DNA from: Terriglobia bacterium | GTDB taxonomy: Bacteria; Acidobacteriota; Terriglobia; Bryobacterales; Bryobacteraceae | DNA: 49,837 nt | Reading direction: 5' to 3' | Assembly: GCA_021325235.1 (NCBI GenBank) | Contig: JAJPHN010000039.1 | Location: 1-49,837 of the forward strand | In this document: positions 1,769-34,363 of the stretch, piece by piece | How the letters are laid out: each line of letters opens with the position of its first letter | How positions within the stretch are numbered: the stretch's first letter is position 1 | Position numbers and translations under genes: made by a program | The notes under the pieces: generated by a model | Database searches by the model: none | What the model was told of the DNA's origin: nothing | What the model saw: only the letters and a program-made list of their open reading frames with translations

Positions 1769-1829
1769 TTTAGTCTTCGCCTCGCTGATAGAGCGCGGGG
1801 TCGTCCTTGTCTTCGCCTCGCTCATCTTG
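1769..1829. repeat. REP-like dispersed repeat, one near-full and one partial copy
   Basis: Positions 1771-1799 read TAGTCTTCGCCTCGCTGATA followed by a GAGCGCGGG tail. This closely matches the 35-base repeat found twice in the RNase P RNA gene (20605-20680). A second partial copy with the core GTCTTCGCCTCGCT lies at 1809-1822. The core can form a GC hairpin. It sits between two divergent genes, where palindromic repeats typically accumulate. Only these two loci were found by eye in the window. Confidence 0.6.
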
Positions 1830-14789: not shown

Positions 14790-17700
14790 TTAGACCGGGC
14801 TCTCGGGCAGCACGCTCTCGGAAGCGAAGGCGACGTAATCCCTCAAGTCGCGCAGGTGGCGCTGGAGGGCGATCAGGTCTTCACGCTTTGCGGCTGCTTC
14901 GATGGCCTCTCCGATCCAGGTGATTTCGTCGAAGCCGAACGACTCCCCGCTGCCTTTCATGTTGTGGCCGAGCGTGCGCAGCTCAGCGAAATTGCGCTGG
15001 CGGATGAGGGCTTCGATCTTTATGAGCTCTTCGCGCCGGGCGGCAAGATAGCGATGCGCAATGGCTTCCAGTCCGATGGGAATTTCGGGCGCTTTCCGCT
15101 GGCGCGAGCCGGAACCCGAGGCAGCGAGCCCGGCCAGTTGCTCGGTGAAACGGGCGGAACGGTAGCCCTCGACGGCCTCGATCAATCTGGCTTTCGAGAT
15201 CGGTTTCGAGAGATGCCCGTTGCAGCCAGCCTGATAACTGCGCGCGGCGTCTTCGACCAGGGCGTTGGCGGTGAGAGCGATGACCGGCACCTCGGGCGCT
15301 TCCTGCTCGCGTTCCCAGGCGCGGATGGCTTTTGTTGCCGACAAGCCATCGAGGAGCGGCATGTGCATGTCCATCAGGATCAGATCGAAGTTTTGGCTTT
15401 TGCGGCGTGCGATGGCATCGAGACCGTTTTCAACGAAAGTCAGCGCGTACCTGCTCTTATCGAGATAAGCGGCGATGAGGAAGCGATTGTCTTCTGAATC
15501 ATCGGCAACCAGGACCCGCAGGGGTGGTTCCGGGGCGACTGGCTGCGCGGCGTTGGTGTATTGGGCGGGTGTGCTCGCGGCATGGCTCAAGGTGTAGGTA
15601 TGGCCAGATTCGAAAGCCGCTGGCGGGTTGTCGCGCGCGGGCACGATCGGATTTTCCGCGCGGCCGAAAATCGCATCGAAACGGAACGTGCTGCCTGCGC
15701 CGGGCGTGCTTTCGACCGAGATCTGGCCGCCCATGCGATGGATCAGGCGACGGGCGATGCCGAGGCCGAGTCCGGTGCCGCCGAAGCGGCGGGTGGTGGA
15801 GCTCTCGGCTTGTGTGAAGTCTTCGAAGATAGAGGCTAGTTTGTCTGCCGGAATGCCGACGCCGGTATCGATGACGGTGAACTCCAGATGCACGGCCGAC
15901 TCAGCGGGACGCTGACGCACTTCGAGGGTGACGCCGCCCTGGGAGGTGAATTTCACGGCGTTGCCGAGCAGGTTGAGCAGAATCTGCTGCAGGCGCGCGG
16001 GGTCGCCCGAGAGCGCGGTGCATGTGCCGGGCTCGATGCGGGCTGCCGCGCTGATCTGCTTTGCCTTCGCCCTGGGAACGACCAGTTCCATGGTTCGCTC
16101 GATGGTGTCTTCGAGAGCGAAATCGGTCTGCTCGAGCTCGAAGCGCCCCGATTCGATTTTGGAGAGATCGAGGATGTCGTTGATCAGCGTTAAGAGCGTG
16201 GATCCGGCGCGGCGGAAGCGTCCGACGTACTCGCGCTGTGCGGGGTCGAGATTGGTGTCCCAGAGCAGGTCGGCCATGCCCAGGATGGCATTCATGGGCG
16301 TGCGAATCTCGTGGCTCATAGCGGCCAGGAAGCTGCTTTTGGCTTCGTTGGCGGATTCGGCGCGCTCGCGTTCTTCGATCAGCAGATCTTCGATCTTCTT
16401 TTGATCGCTCAGGTCGCGCGTGATTTTGGAAAAACCGGTCAACTCGCCATCTGAGTTGCGGATGGCGGTGATGAGTATATCGGCCCAGAAGCGCGAACCG
16501 TCCTTGCGGATGCGCCAGCCCTGCTCGCTGTATTGATCATGGGTCGCCGCAAACTCCAGCTCGAAAGCCGGATGACCGCTGGCGGCGACGTCTTCGGGAT
16601 AAAAGATCGAGAAATGCCGGCCGATAATTTCCTCGGCCTGATAACCTTTGAGGCGCTCAGCGCCCGCGTTCCAGGTGGCTATGCGGCCGTCGCGATCGAG
16701 CATGAAGATGGCGTAGTCCTTGACGCCTTCGACCAGCTGGCGGTAGCGACGCTCGCTTTCGGCGAGCTGTGCAGAGCGCTCTTCGACGCGGCGCTCAAGC
16801 TCGCTGTTCATGCCAAGTATTCGGGCTTCGAGCTGCTTGTAGTTTTCGACGTCGGTGGAGGTGCCGAACCAGCGCATGACCGCTCCGGCCTGATTGCGGA
16901 CGGGAACGGCCCGCGAGAGGTGCCAGCGATAGACGCCATCGGAGCGCCTCAGCCGCACCTCGCATTCGAAGAGAACGCCGCACAGGAAAGCTTCGCGCCA
17001 TTCGCCCTGATAGCGATCCAGGTCGTCGGGATGAATGACGGATAGAGCCTCTTCGAGGCGGCTGGTACCGGTGTACTCATACCAGCGCCGGTTGAATTGC
17101 TGAACATTGCCGTCGGCGCCGGCGGTCCAGACAATCTGGGGCATGGCATCGGCCATCTCGCGCAGCTCGCGTTCGCTGCGGGCCAGGCCCAGTTCGGCGT
17201 GCTTGGAGGCGGTGATGTCGAAATTGACACCCGCCATGCCGATGATCTGCTGCTTCTCGTTGCGCAGTACGTCGCCGCGGCCTGCAATCCAGCGGGTCTT
17301 GCCGCCGGGAGTGGTGATGCGAAATTCGGCGCGATATTCGCCCGTGCCGGCGAGGGACCTTCTTAGCTTGGCCTCGAGCTCGGGAAGATCTTCGGTGAAG
17401 ACGATAGAGCGAAACGCGCCGAAACTGGGGAGTTTCTCAGCCGGTTTGCCGAACACTTGCTCGACGGGACCGGTCCAGCTGACGCAGTCGTTCTCGGGAG
17501 TCCAGGACCAGAGCGCGACCTCGGAGAGATCGAGACCGGTTGCGAGCTGCTGTTCGGCGCGGGCGGCGACAGCGGAGGCCTCAACTCGTGCCAGTTCGGC
17601 GAGCTTGCGTTCGGTGATGTCGAAATTGACGCCGTTCAGGCCTACCGGACGGCGCGCCTCATCGTAGGTGACGGTGGCTTTACAGGCGACCCAGCGCATT

Positions 17701-20240
17701 TCGCCGGAGGGCCAGAGGACGCGGAATTCGATATCGAGCGGCTTGCCGGTGGCGAAAGAGGCGTCGGTGGCCTGCTTGTTGGCCTGTACATCGGCGGGAT
17801 GCTGGCGGGCGCGGAACCAGGAGCCAGGCCCTGAGCCTTCGCGGCCCGGTTCGCCATAGAGTGCCCAGACCATGGGATGAGCGGTGACCTGATCGGTGGC
17901 GGCGTTCCAGCTGAAATCGCCGATGGCGGCGGCGCGGAAGACTTTCTCGAGGCGACGTTCGCGTTCGCGGGTTTCGGATTCGGCGGCGGTGCGGGCTTCT
18001 TCTGAGCGCTCGAGTGCGCCGGCACTACTCCAGATCAGGAAACTGAAGACGAGCGCGTTGGCGAGCGCAAAAAGGGCCAGGCCGAAGAAGGTGTCGTAAA
18101 AACTATGGAGCTGTCCCTGGAGGCGCAGCCAGCCGAGCGCGACCGGAATGAGCAGGCCGGCGGGGAGCAGACGGCGAGCGGTGATTCCACCGGGCCCGGA
18201 GGCCGAGACGACGCGCATCAAGCCTTGTCGCGGAGATTCGAACAGAATCGCCAGGCTGAGCAGATAGAAGCAAAGCGCGGTGGGCGCCGACATCACCGAT
18301 TGCGAAGTAAGCCGGTACTCGAGCGATGCGCCGTACAGGCGGATCAGAAAATCGAAGAGGCTGAAGACAGAGGTGAGGACGGCAAAGCCGTGGGCCAGGG
18401 CGACTGCCCGCCGGGACTGCACGAGCAAGATCGCCGAGCCGGTCAGCACCGCGGCGAAAGCGGTGGCGAGCGGCATGCGTCCGGGCTGTGGCGTCAGGGG
18501 GAGAATGCGGTGGAGGAGAGCCGCGATGCCGAGAGTGATGCCGGTCAACTGCTCGATGCAGCCGGCGATGCCGAAGAAGAGAACGATGGCGGGAAACAGC
18601 TGCCAGCCGGTGCGGCGTTCGCGTCCGGCGAGGAGTCCGGCTATTGCGGCGAGCAGCATCAGAACGGTGCTCGGACCGACGAGTCCGGTGCGGGTGTTCA
18701 ATATGCTGCTGCCCGAGAGCTCGAGAACACAAACCGCGAGTACAACCAGGGCAGCCGCAAAGATGAGAATGCGCGCGCGACGCTGAAAGATGGGCTGCAT
18801 GTCGCGCTGGGGCAGCAGCGGGACGGAGACACGCTTCTGGAAATACCAGACGGCCAGCATCCCGAGTCCCGTGATGGCCGCCAGCAGAACGAGAAACAGG
18901 AGCGCCACGCTCGAATAGGCCGATCGCACGATTTGAACATCCTGTATCGATCGCAACAGGATGCGGGTGGAGGGCGCGCCGTCCACGGTGGTTCGGGTGG
19001 TGCAGATACCCGTTACGAGAAGCTGCGTCCCTGCCTCAAAACCGATTCCTCCGGCGGGAAGAGTGCCGGCAAGCAGCATCTGGAAAGTACGGGAGCCGGA
19101 TCGCAGACGCCAGAGTTCGCCGCGGCTGCTGGCCAGCCGGTCGACAACCGTTCCCTGCAGACGAACCAGCCTGGCCTCATATGGAGTGAAAGTGAAGCCG
19201 TCGCGCTCAACGACCAATTGCGAGGCCTCAATCGAAACCGGTTGCGGCTCGGCGACGCGGCCGATGGGCGTGATGGTGGTGTTGACGAGCGTCGGCATCC
19301 GTTCGGCGGGCGAGACGAAGCCCAGGACGGAGACGCGCGCACCGGGAGTGAACGTCGGGTTCAAACTGTCGGCGATTCGCATTGCGCCGGTTTGGTCCTG
19401 GAGATAAAGGACATGCTCGGGGGGATCGTAGGTGACGGTCGCTTCGATGCGCACACGGTGGGCGGGCGCTCCATCCTGCCCGAAGCGCAGTAATTTCGCG
19501 ATGGGCGACACGGGCAGGACGGATGGTTCGGGCGCGGGCTTGAGAATTTCGATGTCGGTCAGCCTGGGTGCGAAAAGCCGGATGCCGACCAGTTGCTGAT
19601 TGTCGTTGAAGATGGTTCCTGCGACACCGGCAATGCGCACTTCGCTGTCGACCAGTTTTCCGGCGAGATCCTCCGCGTCCTGACCGGTGAAGTTCAGAAC
19701 GTGAACCGCGATCGAACCGCCGTCGGTCTGCAGATCGGCACGCAGGATATTGCGGCCCCAGATGTTTTCGATTTTGGCCGAGCGAATCACACCGGTTACA
19801 GTGACGCGGGTGCTATCGAGCGATCCGGTTACCAACTGGCGATAAGAAACCGGGCGTGCTTCGGGGAGCGTGGCGGTCCGAACAATATCGATGTGTTGGC
19901 TGAGGATGATCGGTGCAAACAGCCCGGGCTGAACGCGGCCGGTGAGGTCGATTTCGTCGCCGATCTGGACCGGTGCTGACTCCTGTCGGTCGATCGAGAT
20001 GGCGCCCGAGGCATCCTGCAGAAAGAACGAGTTTTTCCAGCCGGAGAATGCGGTGATGACGCCGTGGACGCGGATCGGGCGTGCGCTGCCGGGTTTTTCC
20101 GGGCCGAGCTTGCGGACTTCTCCGAGTGGGCTTTGGACCTGCGCCGTGGCCGGGCGTGTGCCGCCCAGAATGGCGAGTATGAGCAGGGCTTGAAATAACC
20201 GCGAACAGTGAGACAGAACGGTGACTATCCTTCGTCTCAA
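14790..20240 (-). CDS. multidomain hybrid sensor histidine kinase
   Basis: This is a 1,816-residue membrane kinase. Order: signal-like segment (about 12-34); a periplasmic region (about 38-435) of repeated OB-fold-like modules, with recurring patterns such as FFLQDASGAISID and LYLQDQTGAMRIA; a membrane helix (about 440-465); a multi-helix membrane sensor region (about 490-735); four PAS domains (about 765-1290); HisKA with SHEIRTP (His near 1309); HATPase with DTGVGIPADKL and a GGTGLGLGIARRL G-box; a receiver with phospho-acceptor Asp near 1623 (LILMDMHMP); and an HPt domain with LGHNMKGSG (His near 1758). It therefore carries a complete internal phosphorelay, although no DNA-binding output is encoded next to it. 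The start is a TTG at 20238-20240; the exact start is uncertain. Confidence 0.92.
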   Translation of the reverse strand: MRRRIVTVLSHCSRLFQALLILAILGGTRPATAQVQSPLGEVRKLGPEKPGSARPIRVHGVITAFSGWKNSFFLQDASGAISIDRQESAPVQIGDEIDLTGRVQPGLFAPIILSQHIDIVRTATLPEARPVSYRQLVTGSLDSTRVTVTGVIRSAKIENIWGRNILRADLQTDGGSIAVHVLNFTGQDAEDLAGKLVDSEVRIAGVAGTIFNDNQQLVGIRLFAPRLTDIEILKPAPEPSVLPVSPIAKLLRFGQDGAPAHRVRIEATVTYDPPEHVLYLQDQTGAMRIADSLNPTFTPGARVSVLGFVSPAERMPTLVNTTITPIGRVAEPQPVSIEASQLVVERDGFTFTPYEARLVRLQGTVVDRLASSRGELWRLRSGSRTFQMLLAGTLPAGGIGFEAGTQLLVTGICTTRTTVDGAPSTRILLRSIQDVQIVRSAYSSVALLFLVLLAAITGLGMLAVWYFQKRVSVPLLPQRDMQPIFQRRARILIFAAALVVLAVCVLELSGSSILNTRTGLVGPSTVLMLLAAIAGLLAGRERRTGWQLFPAIVLFFGIAGCIEQLTGITLGIAALLHRILPLTPQPGRMPLATAFAAVLTGSAILLVQSRRAVALAHGFAVLTSVFSLFDFLIRLYGASLEYRLTSQSVMSAPTALCFYLLSLAILFESPRQGLMRVVSASGPGGITARRLLPAGLLIPVALGWLRLQGQLHSFYDTFFGLALFALANALVFSFLIWSSAGALERSEEARTAAESETRERERRLEKVFRAAAIGDFSWNAATDQVTAHPMVWALYGEPGREGSGPGSWFRARQHPADVQANKQATDASFATGKPLDIEFRVLWPSGEMRWVACKATVTYDEARRPVGLNGVNFDITERKLAELARVEASAVAARAEQQLATGLDLSEVALWSWTPENDCVSWTGPVEQVFGKPAEKLPSFGAFRSIVFTEDLPELEAKLRRSLAGTGEYRAEFRITTPGGKTRWIAGRGDVLRNEKQQIIGMAGVNFDITASKHAELGLARSERELREMADAMPQIVWTAGADGNVQQFNRRWYEYTGTSRLEEALSVIHPDDLDRYQGEWREAFLCGVLFECEVRLRRSDGVYRWHLSRAVPVRNQAGAVMRWFGTSTDVENYKQLEARILGMNSELERRVEERSAQLAESERRYRQLVEGVKDYAIFMLDRDGRIATWNAGAERLKGYQAEEIIGRHFSIFYPEDVAASGHPAFELEFAATHDQYSEQGWRIRKDGSRFWADILITAIRNSDGELTGFSKITRDLSDQKKIEDLLIEERERAESANEAKSSFLAAMSHEIRTPMNAILGMADLLWDTNLDPAQREYVGRFRRAGSTLLTLINDILDLSKIESGRFELEQTDFALEDTIERTMELVVPRAKAKQISAAARIEPGTCTALSGDPARLQQILLNLLGNAVKFTSQGGVTLEVRQRPAESAVHLEFTVIDTGVGIPADKLASIFEDFTQAESSTTRRFGGTGLGLGIARRLIHRMGGQISVESTPGAGSTFRFDAIFGRAENPIVPARDNPPAAFESGHTYTLSHAASTPAQYTNAAQPVAPEPPLRVLVADDSEDNRFLIAAYLDKSRYALTFVENGLDAIARRKSQNFDLILMDMHMPLLDGLSATKAIRAWEREQEAPEVPVIALTANALVEDAARSYQAGCNGHLSKPISKARLIEAVEGYRSARFTEQLAGLAASGSGSRQRKAPEIPIGLEAIAHRYLAARREELIKIEALIRQRNFAELRTLGHNMKGSGESFGFDEITWIGEAIEAAAKREDLIALQRHLRDLRDYVAFASESVLPESPV

Positions 20241-20317: not shown

Positions 20318-20604
20318 GGATGCTGCCTGCGCAGCCGGGCGGCCGCTGGCCATGCGAATGGCGAGAGGAAAGTCCGGTCTTCCCAGGGCAGCATGCCGGC
20401 TAACGGCCGGGGGTGCGCGCTCAAAGCGCGTGTCACGGAAAGTGCCACAGAAAAGATACCGCCTTGCCTGGCGAGAGTCGGGCGGGGTAAGGGTGAAAAG
20501 GTGCGGTAAGAGCGCACCGCGAGGCGAGTAATCGTCCTTGGCAGGGAAAACCCCATGTGAAGCAAGACCAAATAGGGGAGGAGGAGCGGCCCGCTCCGTC
20601 TTTT

Positions 20605-20639
20605 TTGAGTCTTCGCCTCGCTGAGAGGCGCGGGCTCAT
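20605..20639 (+). repeat. hairpin repeat copy 1 inside rnpB
   Basis: This 35-base copy starts TTGAGTCTTCGCCTC and ends GAGGCGCGGGCTCAT. It folds as TGAGTCT/GGGCTCA plus CGCCTC/GAGGCG with one mismatch and a GCTGA loop. It is identical to copy 2 and related to the repeat near position 1771. Confidence 0.9.
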
Positions 20640-20645
20640 TATTTG

Positions 20646-20680
20646 TTGAGTCTTCGCCTCGCTGAGAGGCGCGGGCTCAT
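20646..20680 (+). repeat. hairpin repeat copy 2 inside rnpB
   Basis: It matches copy 1 at all 35 positions, with a 41-base period. The two copies are separated by TATTTG, and together they make up most of the P17/P16 insertion. Identity between copies implies recent duplication or strong homogenisation. Confidence 0.9.
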
Positions 20681-20948
20681 ACCACTCCCGGGTAGGTCGC
20701 TGGAGCCGTTCAGTAATGGACGGCCTAGAGGAATGGCTGCCGCCGCCGGCAGAGATGCGGGCGGGACAGAAACCGGCTTACAGGCTGCGCAGGTTTTTTG
20801 TTTTATATCGAGGCTCGATGACGTGAGCCTCAACTCACCCTTTCCGAGCCGATATCGCACAACAAAAGCAAGGCATTTGTCAGTGCCGCGCGGGCGACAG
20901 TAGCCGAATGCGCCTGTATGAGTGCCTAGACAACTCCACTTCGCCTGA

Positions 20949-33251: not shown

Positions 33252-34277
33252 GTGTTTATTGATGAAGTAGTCATCTCCGTGAAAGCCGGCGACGGAGGGA
33301 ATGGCTGTTCAGCGTTCCGGCGCGAGAAGTTCGTGCCCAAAGGTGGACCGAGCGGAGGGGACGGAGGGCGCGGCGGCGATGTCAAGCTGGTCGCCAGCGA
33401 ACACTACAACACCCTCCTGCACTTCCGATTCAATCCCGAACACACGGCCGAGCGCGGGCGGCATGGCGAAGGAAGCAACCGCACGGGCCGGGATGGAGCC
33501 GGGGTGGAACTGCCGGTACCCGTTGGGACGATCGTTTACAACGACGAGACGGGCGAGCAGATTTTTGACTTCACCGAACCCGGGCAAACGTTCGTGGTTG
33601 CGAGCGGTGGACGGGGCGGTAAGGGAAACGCGCGGTTCGCAACCTCTACAAATCAGGCGCCGACTGAATGCGAAGAAGGAAAACCGGGCGATGCGGTACG
33701 GCTGCGGCTGGAACTGAAGCTACTGGCCGATGTTGGCCTGGTCGGTTTCCCGAACGCCGGAAAGTCGACCCTTATTTCCCGCCTCTCGGCCGCCAAGCCG
33801 AAAATTGCCGATTATCCTTTCACCACCCTGCAGCCCAATCTGGGTGTGGTGCAGGCGGGCGATCACACCTTCGTGCTGGCCGATGTTCCGGGGCTGATCG
33901 AAGGCGCCCACGAAGGACACGGTTTAGGAACGCAGTTTCTGCGGCATATCGAACGCACGCGGCTTTTAGTGCATCTGGTCGATTCCGCCGAGGCGAGCGG
34001 GCGCGATCCAGCCAACGATTTCGACGTGATCATGGGCGAACTGGCCAAGTTCAACGCCGACCTGCTGCGCAAACCGATGCTGGTCGCGGCAACCCGCATC
34101 GACATGTGCACGGATCCGGCGAGAATCGAAGCGATCCGGCGCAAGGCGGAGGAGCGGCATCTGCCGTTTTATGCGATCTCCTCGGTGACCGGCAAAGGTC
34201 TCGAGGAACTGCGCTTTGCGATGAGCTCGCAGCTCTTTCCCGCCCACGAGACGGCCGAAGTTCCCGTCGGAAGCTAA
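33252..34277 (+). CDS. obgE: GTPase ObgE/CgtA
   Basis: The 341-residue ribosome-assembly GTPase has a Gly-rich Obg domain (about 1-158; [34 protein letters not shown]). The G domain has G1 [10 protein letters not shown] (near 164), G2 region [12 protein letters not shown]3 [20 protein letters not shown], and G4 as VAATRIDMC, unusually R-I-D in place of NKxD. There is no C-terminal OCT domain. The GTG at 33252 begins the canonical [10 protein letters not shown]; the longer reading from 33087 only overlaps rpmA. The last nine bases, including the TAA stop, are also the first nine bases of the tRNA-Sec gene. Confidence 0.95.
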
Positions 34278-34363
34278 ACTCTGCCGGTGCAGGGCCCGGT
34301 CTTCAAAACCGGAGTGCGGCACTTCGTGTCACGGGTGGGTTCGACTCCCATTAGCTTCCGCCA
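34269..34363 (+). tRNA. selC: selenocysteine tRNA, anticodon TCA
   Basis: The gene spans 95 bases, as in E. coli selC. An 8-bp acceptor GGAAGCTA/TAGCTTCC and a 5-bp T stem GTGGG/CCCAT with loop TTCGACT give the 8+5 arrangement of bacterial tRNA-Sec. The long D stem is CTCTGC/GCAGGG around CGGT, the anticodon loop is CTTCAAA on a CCGGT/ACCGG stem, and the variable arm is long (GGCAC/GTGTC). Discriminator G and CCA are encoded. It reads UGA as selenocysteine with SelB. It starts inside obgE and likely shares its transcript. No selA, selB or selD is in the window. Confidence 0.95.

Follow-up and report, generated by a model that had tools for sequence, protein, structure and literature searches.

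The RNase P RNA gene of a soil acidobacterium carries an 80-nt insertion holding two units of a dispersed, hairpin-forming repeat, and we consider it highly probable that a structured repeat of this kind entered an essential ribozyme recently, in one lineage. The gene was examined in a stretch of 49,837 nucleotides (the window) from the genome G000, a 60-contig draft of one strain that is 95.72% complete and 4.77% contaminated.

The RNase P RNA Gene and Its Helices

The rnpB gene, which encodes an RNase P RNA of bacterial type A, occupies positions 20327..20796 of the window on the + strand and is 470 nt long including the insert. It matches the RF00010 model over its full length (model positions 1-367) with 269.7 bits and an E value of 5.2e-87, compared with a gathering score of 100. 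The letters GGGTA in L15, together with complementary letters for P15, P16, P17 and P6, place the molecule among class A RNase P RNAs, and the description in the earlier note of a type A gene with GGGTA and intact P15, P16 and P17 was borne out. Both the cmscan alignment and the letters pair the 5' strand of P15 (GACC, 20566..20569, + strand) with GGTC at 20695-20698. By their letters, the 5' strand of P16 (GGGAG, 20576..20580, + strand) has the partner CTCCC at 20685-20689, and P17 is the hairpin GGAGC-GGCCC-GCTCC at 20583..20597 (+ strand). The P17 loop letters GCCC (20589-20592) can pair with GGGC at 20386-20389, a pairing that we take to be P6 by comparison with the E. coli structure, from which the helix names beyond those of the covariance model alignment are likewise taken. 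Perfect pairs in the P1/P2-side arms, counted by eye, number 11.

Repeats cause misjoins during assembly, and in the relative G128 arrays of the repeat found in the rnpB insert sit at contig ends, raising the possibility that two contigs, or the DNA of two organisms, were joined artificially at the repeat. However, the two halves of the gene are complementary in P1, P15, P16 and P6, and the match of the P15, P16 and P6 partners across the insert, added to the 11 pairs on the P1/P2 side, argues against a chimeric contig. Furthermore, this rnpB was the sole RF00010 match when the whole 5.03-Mb genome was searched, and we regard an assembly artefact as very unlikely. The same search found no second rnpB in G000. 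An intact second gene, beside which this one might be a copy in decay, would in the view of the earlier note have counted against its reading.

The neighbor of rnpB is an open reading frame of 1816 aa on the - strand (window 14790-20240), with several PAS domains as well as HisKA, HATPase, response regulator and Hpt domains, and a selenocysteine tRNA gene lies at window positions 34269-34359 (RF01852, 73.1 bits).

An Insertion in the P17-P16 Linker

The 3' strands of P17 (GCTCC, ending at 20597) and P16 (starting at 20685) are separated by 87 nt, exactly as counted in the earlier note. The net insertion is smaller, 80 nt, because several members of the genus read GTTACCA in this linker. Alignment with the genus members and within the set of 168 family rnpBs places the insertion at 20600..20679 (+ strand), in the order GT / insert / TACCA, such that the insertion point lies between the two Ts of GTTACCA. 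The insertion is clean, with the letters of the flanking helices kept, and no target-site duplication was visible when it was compared with the linkers of genus members. Unit 1 of the repeat, TTGAGTC...GGGCTCAT, is 35 nt long and lies at 20605..20639 (+ strand), and unit 2, whose final T may have been part of the linker before the insertion, lies at 20646..20680 (+ strand). The letters of the two units are identical, as had been claimed, with a spacing of 41 nt, and Tandem Repeats Finder reports a period of 41, 2.0 copies and 97% matches.

An rnpB match was present in 185 of the 200 family genomes drawn, and in 13 of the 17 genomes of the genus. Counting G200, G201 and G203, 188 genomes had a match, and 181 loci were fetched, those of 7 genomes not being retrieved. 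The alignment holds 168 of these 181 loci; left out were L054, a genus member with a run of N at the P17-P16 junction, and 12 partial or contig-end matches (L122-L133). Among these 13 loci, a regular expression read the junction as ordinary, with 31-33 nt, in 8 (L122 and L127-L133), a stricter expression did so in 3 of the 13, and the rest were unreadable.

In the other 167 aligned rnpBs, the P17-P16 linker measures 6 nt (108 sequences), 7 nt (57), 8 nt (1) or 10 nt (1), compared with 87 nt here. The family's own linker is thus mostly 6-7 nt, a correction to the earlier note, which had pointed to essentially no extra bases at this junction in E. coli. When the genus members with a readable junction were considered, 10 of 11 had a linker of 7 nt (GTTACCA and variants of it), and L046 had one of 10 nt. 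Within the family sample aligned, the insert is alone at its place in rnpB.

The inserted stretch folds better than shuffled versions of it (z -5.1), as might be expected if it were a structural helix peculiar to this lineage that arose within RNase P RNA itself, with no repeat involved. However, comparison with relatives, which the earlier note had proposed as a check, showed linkers of 10 nt or less in 167 of 167 other aligned rnpBs, none with a comparable insert, and the unit is present elsewhere in the genome, so that a helix evolved in place is already contradicted by the dispersed copies. We rejected this explanation, to which we attach next to no probability, in favor of entry of a dispersed repeat.

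Inserts at Other Places in Family rnpBs

At the same P16/P17 junction, though on its 5' side, inserts of 32 nt (L097, from G092) and 23 nt (L221, from G031) were detected, the shorter of which carries the hairpin CGCGCGC-TTCG-GCGCGCG. The presence of these inserts in two other members suggests that the P16/P17 junction tolerates additions. Other inserts of at least 12 nt were found in P12 (two, in L047 and L048) and in the P13 region (15 sequences), the longest P13-region insert being one of 120 nt (L093, G122:C34:3395-4880) with inverted ends TGCTGAAAAA/TTTTTCAGCA, which appears to resemble a small MITE. The occurrence of inserts at several sites among the family rnpBs suggests that the gene takes additions at variable places in this family.

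Six rnpB inserts were compared with two consensus strings of the repeat, giving 12 tests, and their scores were evaluated against those of shuffled inserts. The score of the P12 insert of G174 (L047, 25 nt) was reached by 0 of 2000 insert shuffles. When whole rnpBs were searched, G174 scored 26. For 1000 shuffled rnpBs the 99% point was 23.5 and the highest score 27, so that over the 168 genes compared the score of G174 is only suggestive. The exact sequence of this insert is single-copy in G174, and it may represent a second entry of the repeat family into rnpB, decayed and deleted at its center, an idea that remains only suggestive. For the other inserts, the fraction of shuffles reaching the score was 0.026 (G166, P12), 0.0075 (G166, near the 3' end), 0.04-0.05 (G031) or above 0.1 (G092 and G108), and none of them stands as a copy of the repeat after allowing for 12 tests. 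The sequence of the G166 P12 insert is single-copy.

Dispersed Copies of the Repeat

The earlier note had proposed that a dispersed element entered a catalytic RNA, and the copy numbers agree with this. Copies with at most 3 mismatches to a 31-mer number 14 in G000, and those with the 35-nt family pattern number 23, including the two in rnpB, with no match to the reversed control in either search. The 35-nt pattern was found in 11 of 237 family genomes, comprising 9 of the 17 genomes of the genus, G068 and G008. With a looser pattern, G000 had 30 copies and 1 control match. In the other 16 genomes of the genus the control gave 0-2 matches, which is similar to the counts of 0-5 in relatives with few matches, so that among the relatives weight can be given to the larger counts only. 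The exact 35-mer of rnpB also occurs on contig C45 of G000 and in G203, and its presence on C45, together with the identity of the two rnpB units, suggests that the event was recent.

Copies are single or in tandem, with a spacing of 37-46 nt, and are often tandem in family genomes; in G128, one array, with 13 copies or more, stops 4 bases short of the end of a contig, and a second array begins at base 5 of a contig. Within the window, two degenerate tandem copies with a spacing of 36 lie outside rnpB at 1769..1828 (+ strand; copies at 1774 and 1810), where a repeat of the same type, near 1.77 kb, had been noticed previously. When ORFs were chosen by a crude procedure, 17 of the 29 copies examined in G000 overlapped none of them, and of the other 12 several overlapped an ORF only at one end. 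Exact matches to a 28-nt core pattern with 26 fixed bases were present on 9 contigs of the genome collection, titled Acidobacteriaceae, Bryobacteraceae or Acidobacteriota. A phage or plasmid as vehicle for the repeat was set aside, there being no match at E 0.01 in the phage or plasmid collection.

The dispersal of the repeat and the empty site in relatives suggest that it is mobile, as the earlier wording had it, and the element in rnpB would have come from elsewhere in the genome by a transposition-like or a recombination route.

The Hairpin of the Repeat Family

To follow the structure of the repeat across its copies, we retained 91 of the 101 copies with at most 2 mismatches. They comprise 66 distinct 30-mers, among them at least one, from G196, that might have matched by chance. 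The family hairpin is GCC-U-CGC/GCG-GGC with an 8-nt loop, formed by columns 6-8/24-26 and 10-12/21-23 with a bulged U. The highest mutual information was found for column pair 7-25, both columns of which were left open in the search pattern, with CG in 36 of the 66 distinct copies, GC in 23, UA in 3, and 4 unpaired; pair 10-23 shows three GC replacements and pair 8-24 shows one UA. Paired cells amounted to 94.4% (85.5% in shuffled data), covariation was 0.217 (0.068 shuffled) and 30 cells were changed on both sides, each value being reached by 0 of 500 shuffles, although the cells are not independent because copies from one array are related. Two measures were weaker: pairs with changes in both partners numbered 3, a value reached in 46 of 500 shuffles, and further pair types numbered 9, reached in 54 of 500. 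At the level of sequence, the family hairpin is supported by compensatory changes.

This hairpin differs from the stem of about 13 bp per unit that had been proposed in the earlier note. The rnpB unit alone can indeed fold 13 bp (7+6 with a 1x1 mismatch, -22.0 kcal/mol, matched by 0 of 2000 mononucleotide shuffles), which is possible because the variable center of the rnpB copies reads GG. As the conserved structure of the family, however, the 13-bp hairpin failed, since over the 9 of its 13 pairs that fall within the 30-mer, 70.0% of cells were paired compared with 70.0% in shuffled data, and covariation was absent. The proposed stem therefore stands for the copies in rnpB, whereas the covarying hairpin of the family is shorter and different.

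Predicted Folding and Expression of the Interrupted RNA

When the insert was folded alone, the predicted minimum was a helix between unit 1 and unit 2 (28 pairs with mismatches, -46.0 kcal/mol), and a near-equal alternative had two hairpins of 13 pairs each (-44.0 kcal/mol). When only 20570-20690 was folded, P16 and P17 were both formed, enclosing the long helix between the units. The unconstrained minimum for the whole RNA is without P16: the inserted U-run takes up part of its 5' strand, and its 3' strand has other partners. Enforcing P16 costs only 1.8 kcal/mol. Given this cost, and given that P16 is likewise missing from the predicted minimum in 7 of the 11 genus relatives that lack the insert, whole-RNA folds are a weak guide.

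We propose that the only rnpB detected received, in its short, single-stranded P17-P16 linker, a two-unit array of a tandem-prone, dispersed hairpin repeat that belongs to Bryobacteraceae-type acidobacteria, or alternatively a single unit that was duplicated afterwards. The units would fold on themselves, either as two 13-bp hairpins or as the 28-bp helix with mismatches, and would project from the junction, such that P15, P16, P17 and the P6 pseudoknot could still form. The insertion would persist because the linker is peripheral. The kept structure and the single copy suggest that the insertion has been survived, as the earlier note had put it; presumably the transcript retains the insert, P16 is formed in vivo and the ribozyme is active.

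A different fate for the transcript would follow if the insert behaved like a 23S rRNA intervening sequence, with RNase III cutting the helix between the units and leaving a two-piece RNase P RNA, its halves held together by P15, P16, P1 and P4. RNase III prefers about two helical turns and cuts 23S intervening sequences, and pairing of unit 1 with unit 2 is what the predicted minimum contains. However, the two-hairpin fold is less stable by only 2 kcal/mol, mismatches interrupt the long helix, and a transcript folds its local hairpins first as it is being made; we consider cleavage quite unlikely.

The insertion also places TCTTTTTT immediately 3' of the P17 hairpin, making a terminator-like site at 20583..20607 (+ strand) in which the P17 stem is followed at once by GTCTTTTTTG. 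From one P16 strand to the other, the richest 8-nt T stretch has 7 T, compared with 2-5 in the other 165 rnpBs that were parsed by regular expression. P17 might thereby have become a weak intrinsic terminator, rnpB being attenuated, with expression leaky or compensated. However, the site is a consensus match only, and the consensus scan of the 821-base region returned 3 terminator-like sites where 0.7 were expected; a terminator-like site inside rnpB should harm expression, if it works, and termination within an essential gene would be selected against. Attenuation is accordingly doubtful in our view. The broader model, that the RNase P RNA is naturally split by an RNase III cut and/or attenuated because P17 and the U-run end some transcripts, is to be taken as tentative and rather improbable, and we continue to favor a repeat that projects from an uncut RNA.

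Relation to Known Elements

As a stem-forming insert in an essential structured RNA, the insertion resembles the intervening sequences of 23S rRNA, which are usually larger and are excised by RNase III. It can also be compared with the STRR sequences of cyanobacteria, another phylum, which reportedly consist of 7-nt repeats. These sequences were described within rnpB of heterocyst-forming cyanobacteria (Vioque, 1997; title cited in PMC2858038). The rickettsial precedent named in the earlier note was confirmed: according to a review, M1 RNA and tmRNA of Rickettsia contain a palindromic element, the RPE (Ogata et al., 2002, cited in PMC2229807). The same review describes RPEs as 105-146 bp long and as occurring in Rickettsia within protein genes as well. 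The likeness lies in a dispersed palindromic repeat that has entered essential RNA genes, including the one for RNase P RNA; in contrast, the unit described here is about 35 nt, well outside the RPE range, and is in tandem and in Acidobacteriota.

Since the RPE and STRR precedents exist, this kind of event is already known. The present case differs in its phylum, in its repeat family, for which neither a REP tag nor a transposase link was found, and perhaps in where the insert lies within the RNA. The literature matches listed contained no published description of a covarying hairpin repeat family in Acidobacteriota, and the present analysis documents one. Nature has in effect run an insertion experiment on an essential ribozyme: should this gene prove functional, an addition of 80 nt is tolerated by the P17-P16 linker of type A RNase P RNA, and the strain offers a clean test of whether RNase P RNA works in two pieces or with an internal terminator-like site.

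REP elements, to which the repeat also bears a likeness, are GTAG-/CGTC-tagged palindromes, short hairpin repeats of 20-40 bp that are dispersed or tandem (PMC3733652). However, the 35-nt unit in rnpB, read on either strand, contains neither tetramer, and no copy lies beside any Y1 transposase gene examined. With up to 4 substitutions allowed, the repeat was near 0 of 23 Y1_Tnp loci in 6 genomes (one locus in G000 and 22 in 5 relatives, a sixth relative, G174, having no Y1_Tnp match), within about 1.5 kb or less at contig ends, a result that speaks against mobilization of the repeat by a RAYT. The only Y1_Tnp match in G000 (L234, on C23 around 66546) is flanked by a different repeat, by eye about CGAGCCGCGACCAAAGGGAGCGGT, which is possibly a REP or TIR family of its own.
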